A stretch of 64,000 nt of DNA from an uncultured Alphaproteobacteria bacterium. Lineage in GTDB: Bacteria; Pseudomonadota; Alphaproteobacteria; HIMB59; GCA-002718135. The translations under genes were made by a program, and so were the position numbers. The stretch's first letter is position 1, and the number at the start of each line of letters is the position of its first letter. The stretch covers positions 134,010 through 198,009 of the forward strand of contig CABZFN010000001.1 of assembly GCA_902525035.1 (NCBI GenBank). Reading direction: 5' to 3'. Positions 26,865 to 42,672 of this stretch are shown in pieces. Under the pieces are notes generated by a model. The model saw nothing but the letters and a program-made list of their open reading frames with translations. It had not been told where the DNA came from and made no database searches.

Positions 26865-27278
26865 TTAGTTTTTTAATTTGCAATTTTCACACAAACCAAA
26901 AATTTCAAGACAGTGTTTATTATATTTAAAATTATTTTTATCAGCTTGTTTAGAAAAATAAGAAAATAAATTGTTTCCAATTAACTCAGTAACATTATCG
27001 CATTTTTCACAAATTAAAAAAGATGTAGAAGTTTTTGCATTACATCCTTCATGTTTACAAGCAACATAAGAATTTCTACTTTCTATTTTATGAACTTTAC
27101 CAATTTCAATTAATTTATCGAGTGCTCTGTAAACTTGCAGAGGAGATTTTATTCCCTTTTTTTGTATATCATAAAGAATTGTATAAGCCTTCATCGGTTC
27201 AGAAGAGTTTTCTAAAACTCCAAGAACTGTTTTTTGATTTTTGGTTAAATTTTCTGATGCTAATGCCATAAATCTCAA
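26865..27278 (-). CDS. zur: Fur-family transcriptional regulator, probable zinc uptake regulator
   Basis: LTKNQKTVLGVLENSSEPMKAYTILYDI winged helix, CEKCDNVTEL, CLEIFGLCENC; next to znuBC. Confidence 0.88.
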   Translation of the reverse strand: MRFMALASENLTKNQKTVLGVLENSSEPMKAYTILYDIQKKGIKSPLQVYRALDKLIEIGKVHKIESRNSYVACKHEGCNAKTSTSFLICEKCDNVTELIGNNLFSYFSKQADKNNFKYNKHCLEIFGLCENCKLKN

Positions 27279-27292
27279 TTACCAAATTGTTT

Positions 27293-28096
27293 TCATTTTT
27301 GCAACTTACCTCTCAACTCTAGTGGAATTAGAGAAATGATAAATAATATCAGAGCTATAACAATAATTGAAGGTCCTGAAGAGGTATTTAATTCCAAAGA
27401 TGTAAATAAGCCAATTGTGACAGATAAAATACCAATTAATATAGCTACAAGTACCATTTGTTTTGGATTGTTAGTTATATTTCTTGATGCGGCAGCTGGT
27501 ATTATTAGCAGACCAGTAATTAAAAGAGTCCCAATCATTTTTATAGACAATGCAATAACTCCAGCAAGTAGTAGAGTAAAGATCATATTATATATGTTCG
27601 GTTTCATTCCTTCTGCTGAAGCAAGATCATAATTAACTGTAGCGGAAAATAATGATTTCCAAATAAAATATAAAATTCCTAAAATTATAAAACCACCAAT
27701 CCAAACTAAGGCAATGTCTTCAACAGTTACTGCCAAGATATCACCAAAAAGTAATCCCATAATATCAAAACGAATACTTGATAAAAAGCCGATTAAAACT
27801 AAGCCAATAGCTAAAGTAGAGTGAGCTAATAATCCAAGTAATGAGTCCCCGGCTAATCTAGTCCTCTTTTGAAGGTTGAGAAGAAGTAGAGCAATGACCG
27901 CAGATATTACAAACACGGAAAAGGCAATATTTAAACTAAAGGCATAGGCTAAAGTTACTCCTAATAAGGCAGAGTGTGCTAAGGTATCACCAAAATAAGA
28001 TAATCGTCTCCAAATTACTAAGCAACCTAACGGTCCTGTTATTATAGCAATACCAATACCGGCAACTAATGCTCTAGTAAAAAAATCATCAAACAT
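27293..28096 (-). CDS. znuB: Zinc ABC transporter permease
   Basis: ABC-3 permease: GPLGCLVIWRRLSYFGDTLAHSALLG. Confidence 0.93.
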   Translation of the reverse strand: MFDDFFTRALVAGIGIAIITGPLGCLVIWRRLSYFGDTLAHSALLGVTLAYAFSLNIAFSVFVISAVIALLLLNLQKRTRLAGDSLLGLLAHSTLAIGLVLIGFLSSIRFDIMGLLFGDILAVTVEDIALVWIGGFIILGILYFIWKSLFSATVNYDLASAEGMKPNIYNMIFTLLLAGVIALSIKMIGTLLITGLLIIPAAASRNITNNPKQMVLVAILIGILSVTIGLFTSLELNTSSGPSIIVIALILFIISLIPLELRGKLQK

Positions 28097-28836
28097 TAAC
28101 TAGACACACTTCCGTCAGAATTATGTGTGTGATCATGATCGTGCTGATAATATGTCAATGTTTTTGATCTATGTTCACCAAATAATTCTAAATAGGCTTT
28201 ATCTTTTATAACTGCACTTGGTTTTCCTGAACAACAGATATGTCCATTTAAACAGACTACATGATCTGTTGCAGACATTACAAAATGCAAGTCATGGGAG
28301 ACTAATAAAATTCCACAATTTAGGTTTGCTGAAATATTTTTTATAATATTATAAAGGTCAATTTCTCCATTAAAATCAACTCCCTGCACAGGTTCATCTA
28401 AAACTAGTAATTCTGGTTTTTTTGCAATAGCTCTCGCTAGAAGGACACGTTGAAATTCGCCACCAGATAGACCATGTATTTGCTCCTTGAAAAGTTTTTC
28501 TACACCAGTTTGATTTAAGGATTCAATAATTTCATTATTGCTGAGATTATTGGTTAATCGCATAAAATCTACAACACGTAATGGCATAGTCCAATCGATA
28601 TTAATTTTCTGAGGAACATATGCTATTTTATTTGTAAACCGTTTCAATGAACCTTCATCAGGTTCAAGAATATTAAGTACTATTTTAGCTGTTGTAGTTT
28701 TTCCAGAACCATTGGGTCCAATTAGGGTAACTATTTGACCACTTTTTACCTCAAGAGATACACCTCTTATTAACCATTTTGGTGACTTATAAATACCTGC
28801 GTTCTCTAAACTTACCAATAAATTATTTTTACTCAT
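28096..28836 (-). CDS. znuC: Zinc ABC transporter ATP-binding protein
   Basis: GPNGSGKTT, LSGGEFQRVLLARA, LVLDEPVQGVD; His-rich C-terminus YYQHDHDHTHNSD. Confidence 0.94.
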   Translation of the reverse strand: MSKNNLLVSLENAGIYKSPKWLIRGVSLEVKSGQIVTLIGPNGSGKTTTAKIVLNILEPDEGSLKRFTNKIAYVPQKINIDWTMPLRVVDFMRLTNNLSNNEIIESLNQTGVEKLFKEQIHGLSGGEFQRVLLARAIAKKPELLVLDEPVQGVDFNGEIDLYNIIKNISANLNCGILLVSHDLHFVMSATDHVVCLNGHICCSGKPSAVIKDKAYLELFGEHRSKTLTYYQHDHDHTHNSDGSVSS

Positions 28837-28856
28837 TTTTCTATTTACAATTCAAA

Positions 28857-28878
28857 ATGTAATATTATAACATTACAT
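28857..28878. promoter_or_regulatory. Candidate Zur operator
   Basis: ATGTAATATTATAACATTACAT, 10/11 paired inverted repeat, in the znuC/znuA divergent intergenic region. Confidence 0.78.
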
Positions 28879-28913: not shown

Positions 28914-29981
28914 ATGAAACAAACGAACTTTTTTCTACATATTTCTAAGATTATTTTGTTTTCAGGAATTCTTGTTGCAACTGCATCTGCTAGAGCAGAG
29001 CTAAAAGTTGTTACCACAATTAAACCACTACATTCATTGATTTCAAATGTTATGGATGGAGTAGGTGAACCTGGACTTATAATTGATGGAAGTATATCAC
29101 CACACAGTTTTACAATGAAACCTTCTCATGCGAAAATGCTTGAGGAAGCAGATGTCATTTTTTGGATTGGAGAGGGTATTGAAACATCAATGGAAGAACC
29201 CCTAGACTCTATTGCAAAGGATGCAGAAGTAATTGAATTTATGGAACTTGATTCAATTGTTAAATTAAAATTTAGAGAAGAATCAATTTTTGGTGATCAT
29301 GATGACCACGACGATCACGATGACCACGACGATCACGATGACCACGACGATCACGATGATCATGACGATCATGATGACCACGATGATCATGACGATCACG
29401 ATGACCATGATGATCACGATGATCATGACGACCATGACGACCATGATGATCATGCTGGGCACGAAGGTCACAACCATGGAGAGTTTGATGCTCACATATG
29501 GTTAGATCCAAGTAATGCCAAAGAAATGGTTCATGAAATAGCTCATGAATTAGGTGATTTAGATCCCGCTAATAAAGACAAATATGAAGCAAATGCAGAA
29601 GCAACAATTAAAGCTTTAGATCAGCTTATTAGTGATGTTGGTACAGATATTAATTCTGATGCAAAATTTGTAGTGTTCCATGACGCCTACCAATACTTTG
29701 AAGAAAGATTTGGTGTAAGAGCTGCAGGAGCTTTAACATTGAATACTGATGTTTTACCGGGTGCAAAACAAATAGCTGATATTCAGGATGTTATTAAAGA
29801 CAAAGGAATAAAATGTATTTTCTCTGAACCTCAATTTAATCCAAAGATAATCACTACTATAGCTGAAGATATGAATATCAAAACAGGTGTCTTTGATCCT
29901 CTGGGTGCAAACATCGACCCTGGTAAGTCACTATACTTTAAGTTGATATCAAATCTCGGTAACGAGCTTAAAGGCTGTTAG
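28914..29981 (+). CDS. znuA: Zinc ABC transporter substrate-binding protein with long Asp/His repeat
   Basis: TTIKPLHSLISNVM, SPHSFTMKPSHAKML, FDAHIWLDPSNAK, VFHDAYQYFEERFG. Confidence 0.95.
   Translation: MKQTNFFLHISKIILFSGILVATASARAELKVVTTIKPLHSLISNVMDGVGEPGLIIDGSISPHSFTMKPSHAKMLEEADVIFWIGEGIETSMEEPLDSIAKDAEVIEFMELDSIVKLKFREESIFGDHDDHDDHDDHDDHDDHDDHDDHDDHDDHDDHDDHDDHDDHDDHDDHDDHDDHAGHEGHNHGEFDAHIWLDPSNAKEMVHEIAHELGDLDPANKDKYEANAEATIKALDQLISDVGTDINSDAKFVVFHDAYQYFEERFGVRAAGALTLNTDVLPGAKQIADIQDVIKDKGIKCIFSEPQFNPKIITTIAEDMNIKTGVFDPLGANIDPGKSLYFKLISNLGNELKGC
29295..29453 (+). repeat. In-frame 9-bp tandem repeat encoding (Asp-His-Asp)n
   Basis: 159 nt of GAT/GAC CAT/CAC GAT/GAC units, 53 residues = (DHD)x17 + DH. 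Confidence 0.95.
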
Positions 29982-30053: not shown

Positions 30054-31025
30054 ATGGAAAATACTTCTCAGGTTCCAGTTACTGTTCTAACAGGGTTTCT
30101 TGGAGCAGGAAAAACAACACTTTTAAATCGAATATTAACTGAGCAACATGGCAGAAAATATGCCGTAATTGTAAATGAATTTGGAGAGCAGGGAATTGAT
30201 AATGACCTTGTTGTTGATGCAGACGAAGAAGTATTTGAAATGAATAACGGATGTATATGCTGCACTGTTAGAGGCGATTTAATTAGAATTCTAAGTGGAT
30301 TGATGAAACGTGCTGATAAGCTTGATGCAATTATTGTTGAGACAACTGGTTTAGCAGATCCAGCACCAGTAGCACAAACCTTCTTTGTTGATCAAGATGT
30401 TGCTGATCGTACAAAGTTAGATGCTATTGTTACAGTGGCAGATGCTGTTCATTTAAGTTCTCAATTAACAGAACATCATGAAGCGGAGGAGCAAATTGCT
30501 TTTGCCGATGTTATTTTATTAAACAAAGTTGATTTAGTAGATGAAAGTGGATTAGATCGGGTTAAAGATCGGATTAAAAAAATTAATCCTTTTGCCAAAA
30601 TAATTAATACAACTCGTTGTTCTGCTCCATTAGATGAAGTTGTTGGACTTAATGCTTTCAGTTTGGACCGTATCTTAGAAGTGGAACCTGATTTTTTAGA
30701 ATCAGATCATGATCATGAACATGATGATGATGTTACTAGCTTATCCTTTGTCTCTGATACACCATTAGATATGGATAAGTTCCAAGATTGGTTTGGAAAC
30801 TTACTAAGGACAAAAGGTCAGGACATACTTCGATCAAAAGGAATTTTGAACTTTAAAGGTGAAGAAGAACGATATGTATTTCAAGGAGTGCACATGCTTA
30901 TGGATGCTTCTCCAATGGGACCTTGGCCTAAAGGGAAAGACAGAAGTTCGCGAGTAGTATTTATTGGTCGTGATCTTGATAATATGAATCTTAAGGAAGG
31001 CTTTGATAATTGTAAATCAGCATGA
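30054..31025 (+). CDS. CobW/COG0523 family GTP-binding metallochaperone (probable zinc chaperone)
   Basis: [37 protein letters not shown], His/Asp-rich HDHEHDDD. Confidence 0.92.
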
Positions 31026-32059
31026 ACGCTGATTTAGAAAAACTTCAAGAATCAAATAAAACTGAACTTGAGCGAAGAGGTTCAATAATAAATACTGGTG
31101 CTCCGGTTACTGAAGCGATTACAATTCGCGATCACATAGCAGTTGGTTTTGGAGATGGTACAGTAAGATTTTTTCAATCTGGTTCTGAGCCTAAAGTAGT
31201 TAAAGCACATAAAGGTGTAGTCTTCAGCATGGCCCGTAATGGAGATCATGTTTTAACTGGTGGTGAAGATGGACGTTTTCTAAAAATTTCTTCTGAAGGA
31301 GATATTGATGAAATTGCTAACTTTGGCTCAAGATGGGTAGACTATGTAGCTTCCTATAAAGATTTTAAAGTTTGTTCATCAGGAAACACTGTTCACATTT
31401 GGTCAAAGAGTAAAGAAAAAATTAATTCTTTAGAACATCAAAGCACAGTTGGTGGTTTAACTTTTGATAACAAAGGTAAGCGTCTAGCTGTTTCACGATA
31501 TGGTGGAGTAACTGTATGGAAACAAAATAATAATAAATGGACATCTTCAAATTATTCCTGGAAAGGATCACATGGCAAAGTAACTTTTAGTCCAGATGGT
31601 AGATATCTAGTTAGCTCTATGCAAGAAAATCAAATTCACGGTTGGCGAATAAATGATAAAGCTGATTTAGCAATGTCAGGATATCCAGCAAAAATAAAAA
31701 GTTTTACTTGGGTTGGAGACACACCTTATTTAGTAACATCAGGATCAAGCGATGCAGTTTGTTGGCCATTTGATGGAAAAGAAGGGCCTATGGGACGCAA
31801 GCCAGTTTGTGTTGCAAATGGTGGCAAAGAACTTGCCACATTTGTAAAGGTTTTAGATGGAGAAAACGCAGTTTTTACTGGTTTCTCAGATGGATCTGTT
31901 CTCTTATCAGAAATAGATGAAAGTAAAAAACCAATTAGAATTAGAAATTCTACGGGCTCAGAAGTTACAGCAATAGCAGTATCTAGTAATCGTGAACAAG
32001 TATTAATCGGTGACTTGCAAGGAAATATTTTATTATCTTCGTTGTGGGCAGATAACTAG
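31022..32059 (+). CDS. WD40-repeat protein
   Basis: Repeated [33 protein letters not shown] blades; overlaps COG0523 gene (ATGA). Confidence 0.85.
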
Positions 32060-32068
32060 GCGCTAAAG

Positions 32069-32323
32069 ATGTTTAATCGTAAAACTCAAAATATTGAGAA
32101 AATAAGAAATCTAAAACATTTAATTTCTAATAAATATAAACTGTCAGATAATACTATCATTAGTATTGCTGAACTTAGTTGTCATGAACCTGACTGTCCT
32201 CCGATTGAAACTGTTATTACAGTAAGATATGAAAATGGATCTATGAAAAATCGGCGAGTAGCTAAACCAATTAGTGAAGTTGAGGAGACAGATATTTATG
32301 AACTAGAGGAACACTCTCACTAA
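32069..32323 (+). CDS. Conserved-looking 84-aa protein with SCHEPDCPPIET motif
   Basis: Directly downstream of COG0523-WD40; ELSCHEPDCPPIETVITV. Confidence 0.7.
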   Translation: MFNRKTQNIEKIRNLKHLISNKYKLSDNTIISIAELSCHEPDCPPIETVITVRYENGSMKNRRVAKPISEVEETDIYELEEHSH

Positions 32324-32414
32324 TTAATAAACTAGCAACACCCCCACCTTCACAAGTACAGCAACAGCTACAACTGCAACCACACTTTGGTGGGTTTGGA
32401 TTTTGATTTTTCAT
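32271..32414 (-). CDS. Short Cys-rich (metallothionein-like) peptide
   Basis: Not in ORF track: MKNQNPNPPKCGCSCSCCCTCEGGGVASLLISESVPLVHKYLSPQLH*, SD AGGTGA 4 nt before ATG (AGGTGAAATTATG). Confidence 0.55.
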   Translation of the reverse strand: MKNQNPNPPKCGCSCSCCCTCEGGGVASLLISESVPLVHKYLSPQLH

Positions 32415-32454
32415 AATTTCACCTATATATTTTTAATATAATTTTAAAACACAA

Positions 32455-42358: not shown

Positions 42359-42381
42359 TTATCTATATTTAATATTATAAC

Positions 42382-42672
42382 ATGGTTGATAGAAACAAAA
42401 TACTTTCCGATTTATCAAAATTTGCAGTTGATGCTATGAGCACTTTCTCAGGCGTTAAAGAGGAGATTGAAACAATTGTATCTTTACGAGTTAACAAAAT
42501 AATAAAAAAAATGAATCTTGTTAAAAAAGATGAATTTGATGTACTGAAAAAAATGGTGCAAAAAATGATGATGGAAAATGAAAAATCAAAAAAAACATAT
42601 TCAAGATCAGTAAAATCTAAGAAAAAAACAGTTAAAAAGAAAAAAACTATTAAAAAGAAATCAAAAACCTAG
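42382..42672 (+). CDS. Accessory factor UbiK family (BMFP) protein with Lys-rich tail
   Basis: ILSDLSKFAVDAMSTFSGVKEEIE then coiled coil and poly-Lys C-terminus; divergent from lgt. Confidence 0.75.
   Translation: MVDRNKILSDLSKFAVDAMSTFSGVKEEIETIVSLRVNKIIKKMNLVKKDEFDVLKKMVQKMMMENEKSKKTYSRSVKSKKKTVKKKKTIKKKSKT

Follow-up and report, generated by a model that had tools for sequence, protein, structure and literature searches.

Does the short, cysteine-rich reading frame on the minus strand at 32271-32414 of the window (the whole stretch of 64,000 nucleotides analyzed here) encode a real peptide, and if so, does that peptide belong with the zinc genes beside it? The first-pass annotation took it for an uncalled gene with a well-placed Shine-Dalgarno sequence, and suggested a metallothionein-like zinc buffer, a metal-delivery peptide, or the precursor of a modified peptide. 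Comparison with related genomes points to a separate small gene for a metallothionein-like peptide with nine cysteines, which would reside in the cytosol and act as a zinc buffer or bank together with the zur/znu island; judging from sequence, we put the probability of this reading at a little under 0.6.

The frame translates exactly as first quoted, AGGTGAAATTATG is present upstream of it, and residues C11 to C21 of the window ORF do contain seven Cys in eleven residues. Such density had been called very rare by chance, and simulation agrees: in 150 first-order Markov windows of the same composition, no ORF of 20 amino acids or more contained seven Cys in eleven residues, the highest count being five. 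The proposed length of 47 residues, on the other hand, has to be corrected from about residue 25 onward. Among 97 distinct homologous loci, 95 stop after 26-27 codons with frame and Cys codons intact (save a single Cys missing from one of them). Where the close relative L018 reads GAA GGT GGA GGT TGC TGT TAA, the window copy reads GAA GGT GGG GGT GTT GCT AG, and thus lacks one base near 32341-32348, within the glycine codons that precede the final CC. Because of this missing base, the last 22 residues of the longer form are a read-through into the end of the 84-residue protein gene on the opposite strand. Translation, the homologous loci and their codon columns place the conserved part of the peptide gene (beginning MKNQNPNPPKCGCSCSCCCTCEGG, codons 1-24 plus two bases of codon 25) at 32341..32414 on the minus strand. 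It is followed at 32332..32340 by TGT TGC TAG, which comparison with L018 and with the C-C ends of the relatives identifies as the canonical final Cys-Cys and stop, out of frame in the window, and at 32271..32331 by the read-through tail, which lies outside the canonical peptide and overlaps the 3' end of the 84-residue protein gene. We rejected the 47-residue form as the true product, its tail being absent from all relatives. The missing base reflects either a true frameshift or a sequence error, the genome being fragmentary (46 contigs, 78% complete). The second frame-broken copy, L337 in genome G446, has one extra base after an ACT codon, and one-base breaks of this kind may come from faulty assembly of single-cell genomes.

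The corrected consensus, M(K/D)xxxPxPxxCGCSCSCCCTC-xGxCC, has nine Cys, two more than the core first described, and is one third cysteine; the Cys pattern is CxCxCxCCCxC...CC, and in all intact relatives the final C-C either closes the chain or is followed by one more residue. Relatives fall into two families. The canonical form in the window's own family (f1) is MKNQNPNPPKCGCSCSCCCTCEGG(G/D)CC and then the stop codon, while that in the second family (f2) is M(D/E)(N/T)NKPKPDCGCSC(S/P)CCCTCG(D/E)GCC(Q/S/N), likewise ended by a stop. Two canonical peptides are MKNQNPNPPKCGCSCSCCCTCEGGDCC and MDNNKPKPDCGCSCSCCCTCGDGCCQ. Canonical sequences are 26-27 amino acids long with 9 Cys, and are free of F, Y, W and H.

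Selection acts on the protein sequence. By Nei-Gojobori proportions over related sequences, which are not a phylogenetic test, changes in f1 are overwhelmingly synonymous (pS 0.38 vs pN 0.028), and values for f2 are similar (pS 0.39 vs pN 0.023). In the Cys core of f1 the figures are pS 0.62 and pN 0.007, so that purifying selection on the Cys codons, which the first-pass annotation had proposed as a check, is indeed found. The non-Cys residues (NPxPPK, and those within CGCSCSCCCTC) are strongly conserved too. For Ser14, every f1 copy uses AGY and every f2 copy TCN; Ser16 shows the same division except for one copy with Gly and two with Pro. Exchange of AGY for TCN requires two base changes, yet Ser is retained, which means that the protein and not the DNA is conserved. 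An RNA element was rejected, given the synonymous drift and the lack of any Rfam match. The gene would appear to be translated.

A first search among relatives detected the peptide in 47 of 61 genomes, counting the window's own. Across the marine order HIMB59 it occurs in 110 of 162 genomes, belonging to two genera (of seven) in two families. Completeness is 50-90% for most of these genomes and, given such gaps, almost all members of many of these species probably carry the gene. A closed relative, G037, lacks the peptide, which counts against our reading. In a class-wide sample of 385 genomes the peptide is confined to this one order, by pattern and by profile alike; two marginal profile matches (G292 and G415), in GC-rich DNA with long overlapping frames, were judged to be chance. 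A pattern scan of a contig collection finds the true family, among the matches listed, only in contigs of uncultured Alphaproteobacteria (AG- isolates where titled), and the other matches listed are mostly poly-Cys frames. Viral carriage was rejected: among the matches listed for a loose pattern in viral contigs there are only poly-Cys-type frames, and a stricter pattern gives one match, of that same type. By inference, the order HIMB59 is the AEGEAN-169 clade of PMC10308909 and f2 is its subclade I; f1 is perhaps subclade II.

In the window, the peptide gene is convergent with the COG0523, WD40 and 84-residue protein genes and close to zur/znu, just as first described. Three genes of the island lie on the minus strand: zur, for a Fur-family zinc sensor (26865..27278; PF01475, with Zur as the best NCBIfam match, below cut-off), znuB, for the importer's membrane protein (27293..28096; PF00950), and znuC, for its ATPase (28096..28836; PF00005). 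On the plus strand are znuA, for the importer's zinc-binding protein with a long His-Asp repeat (28914..29981; PF01297), and then the rest of the zinc block, namely a COG0523/CobW GTPase (30054..31025; PF02492 and PF07683), a WD40-repeat protein (31022..32059; PF00400) and the 84-residue protein (32069..32323; no Pfam or NCBIfam family). The 84-residue protein carries the motif SCHEPDCPPIETVI, and in relatives its gene is often followed by one for a DUF1636 protein, which is absent from the window. The tandem repeat encoding the His-Asp stretch of ZnuA (29294-29452) can be described as 17.7 copies of a 9-bp unit or 8.6 copies of an 18-bp unit. Among relatives, ZnuA open frames are between about 340 and more than 400 amino acids long, which probably means that the length of the repeat varies.

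This arrangement is maintained in f1. In 72 of 73 further copies the convergent neighbor of the peptide gene is the last gene of a znuA(-COG0523-WD40-84aa-DUF1636) block, the exception lying at a contig end. That last gene may encode the 84-residue protein (30 copies), DUF1636 (20) or ZnuA itself (22), the linkage persisting with or without the genes from COG0523 to DUF1636. The opposite flank is pirin in 59 cases and murJ in 14, so the zinc block and the peptide stay together across differing chromosomal settings. Conservation, selection and linkage together uphold the original proposal of a real coding, Cys-rich peptide tied to a zinc island. Fifteen f1 genomes have no peptide, and twelve of these have no ZnuA match either, a pattern that fits joint loss or absence of the entire locus from incomplete assemblies. 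In G029, which has ZnuA and no peptide, the contig breaks off within DUF1636 and does not reach the place where the peptide would be. In G447 and G443, murJ comes next after znuA and the sequence between them shows no trace of the peptide; these two genomes count against our reading.

A predicted Zur box, AATGTAATATTATAACATTAC, lies between znuC and znuA (28856..28876, plus strand); it is the best site in the window, and its inverted repeat is conserved in relatives. The region upstream of the peptide gene (32415..32454, minus strand), which it has in common with a divergent pirin gene, has AGGTGAAATT before the ATG, and a Zur matrix scan found no Zur-box-like site there. This counts against our reading and makes simple repression by Zur unlikely; control by a nearby Zur box was accordingly rejected. 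A buffer role would be compatible with constant expression or with control by another sensor. Promoter and terminator scans gave results no better than shuffles. A weaker Zur-like site, TATTTAATATTATAACATGGT, at 42366-42386 between lgt and a 96-residue ORF, is probably a chance occurrence.

The second family presents a different neighborhood. Its znu block is found elsewhere in the genome, not adjacent to the peptide, which also counts against our reading and leaves a single family as the basis for the zinc link. The f2 peptide gene sits between a gene for an Anbu-type proteasome-related protein and one for a methyltransferase or an uncharacterized 306-residue protein, with SulP beyond; the Anbu gene in turn adjoins one for a circularly permuted ATP-grasp protein. 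Among 52 f2 genomes, 35 have both Anbu and the peptide, one (G519) the peptide only, two Anbu only (G520, and G524, whose contig stops at Anbu), and the remaining 14 have neither. The peptide can therefore persist without Anbu, as in G519, and no Anbu was found in the f1 genomes tested. Dependence on Anbu was rejected on these grounds, and we read the association as neighborhood. The pairing of Anbu with the circularly permuted ATP-grasp protein is seen in 37 of the 52 genomes and is absent from the others, closed G037 among them. In the one locus inspected, no large ORF was recognized as alpha-E or transglutaminase, the usual partners of Anbu. A distant ATP-grasp homolog (49% identity) does occur in f1, at another location and without Anbu (L371, at G000:C6:57441-58853; L372; L373). 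Upstream of the f2 peptide (at loci such as L025, L029 and L040) are conserved TTGTAA and GATATT-like hexamers, the second of which stops some 8 nt short of the ATG, a spacing that could produce a nearly leaderless transcript.

What might such a peptide do? Its N-terminus is short, polar and Pro-rich with no signal-like stretch, so that it should stay in the reducing cytosol. Nine thiolates with no other soft ligand suggest a metal cluster: the CxCxCxCCCxC run and the terminal CC would probably wrap a small one, and nine Cys could hold three Zn(II), or several Cu(I). Linkage to znuA suggests that the metal is zinc. Most likely, then, the f1 peptide would be an intracellular zinc buffer or bank working alongside zur/znu, in which zinc brought in by ZnuABC would be held safely and later given back. 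In its sequence the peptide resembles a metallothionein in the general sense, being very short and Cys-rich with CxC and CC motifs and no aromatic residues. It may work like one, while not being a member of the metallothionein families tested: neither canonical peptide has a Pfam match at E up to 10, the PF02069 profile included, which counts against our reading, and no NCBIfam or PDB relative was found.

Other explanations must be weighed against a zinc buffer. The thiolates could instead form a Cu(I) cluster that protects the cytosol, with proximity to znu incidental or a matter of mismetallation control. The absence of any His ligand favors a Cu(I)-thionein of this sort, as does the absence of any zinc gene adjoining the f2 peptide, and there are fungal precedents: the shortest known metallothioneins are Cu-thioneins (PMC4755600), and one fungal metallothionein bearing CCC forms a Cu4Cys8-9 cluster (PMC13107397). 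We nevertheless consider copper unlikely, while granting it real weight, as the sole recurrent metal context is the zinc block of f1 and the mapped neighbors include no identified copper gene. Rather unlikely as well is the first-pass suggestion that the peptide delivers metal to, or acts as an adaptor for, a specific protein (the COG0523 GTPase, ZnuA or Zur). The consistent association with the znuA block would suit such a role, and non-Cys conservation does exceed what the number of thiols alone requires. For the neighboring GTPase the idea is weakened, however, by the eight f1 genomes with znuA-only islands, none of which (8/8, in incomplete assemblies) has a COG0523 match; we rejected dependence on COG0523 for this reason. 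The peptide-bearing f2 genomes G038 and G042 also lack a COG0523 match, and delivery to importer components fits poorly with an f2 peptide remote from znu.

The suggestion of a modified-peptide precursor (for methanobactin, a bufferin or another RiPP) has lost ground, and we consider it improbable, together with its variant in which the peptide is a substrate of the f2 ATP-grasp or Anbu enzymes. The peptide is dense in Cys, Ser and Thr, and in f2 it adjoins both of those genes. Against this, neither MNIO/DUF692 nor YcaO was found in 12 genomes each, with control genomes positive, which led us to reject modification by either enzyme, and among the neighbors identified by homology there is no radical SAM, lanthipeptide or other biosynthetic enzyme; Anbu and the peptide, moreover, each occur without the other, in G520 and G519. 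A short ORF with a Cys run also brings to mind the cysteine-sensing leaders that control a downstream gene, and poly-Cys leader ORFs are known in mycobacteria. Here 72 of 73 f1 copies, and the f2 copies mapped, have a convergent gene as their nearest downstream neighbor, and conservation extends beyond the Cys residues. A leader or attenuator was rejected by this gene order, with no same-strand gene directly downstream, and we give it very little credence. Least probable of all, to the point of being negligible, is a chance reading frame that has no product. The broken frame of the window copy speaks for it, but the mostly synonymous change in two families and the simulated windows led us to reject it.

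Surface waters of the open ocean contain little zinc, and our literature search found no paper on zinc storage in the streamlined heterotrophs of the AEGEAN-169/HIMB59 clade. A peptide of 27 residues that is carried by the majority of genomes in two families, one of which keeps it linked to the zinc importer, offers a candidate that can be tested directly. It is possible, at somewhat less than even odds, that these peptides are zinc-thioneins of a new, ultra-small, nine-cysteine kind, carried by nearly all members of two families of an abundant open-ocean order and serving as the storage arm of a streamlined zur/znu economy. At 81-84 nucleotides including the stop codon, the gene falls below the 90-nt minimum gene length of Prodigal and so will normally be missing from annotations; comparable peptides elsewhere may escape in the same way. 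If metal binding is true, the peptide would tie the shortest metallothioneins described in length while having more Cys (9 vs 7).

Several known systems invite comparison. The nine-Cys beta domain of animal metallothioneins holds three Zn(II) in about 30 residues; ours is similar in Cys number and length, but is a stand-alone peptide with different Cys spacing, a CCC motif and no sequence match. Precursors of methanobactins and bufferins are likewise short, Cys-rich bacterial peptides that handle metal, but they need MNIO (PF05114), which was not found in any of the 12 genomes searched. The short metallothioneins of Neurospora crassa and Agaricus bisporus (26 amino acids, 7 Cys; PMC4755600) are equal in length, single-domain and built on CxC motifs; they differ in belonging to family 8, with the spacing CXC-X5-CXC-X3-CXC-X2-C in place of nine Cys with CCC and a terminal CC, and there is no detectable homology. 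In the fungal Cu4Cys8-9 cluster all Cys are used, and all three in the CCC motif coordinate Cu(I) (PMC13107397). SmtA/BmtA (PF02069), also small, Cys-rich bacterial peptides with CxC and CC motifs, are about twice as long and have His ligands and a zinc-finger-like part that ours does not, and the peptide shows neither a match to their profile nor a Zur box upstream. Bacterial metallothioneins bind zinc tightly enough for buffering at cellular levels (PMC10612145). In the marine Synechococcus WH8102, Zur represses znuABC and activates bmtA (PMC9337993), a marine precedent for joining zinc import with metallothionein storage that supports the reading of the peptide as a zinc buffer.
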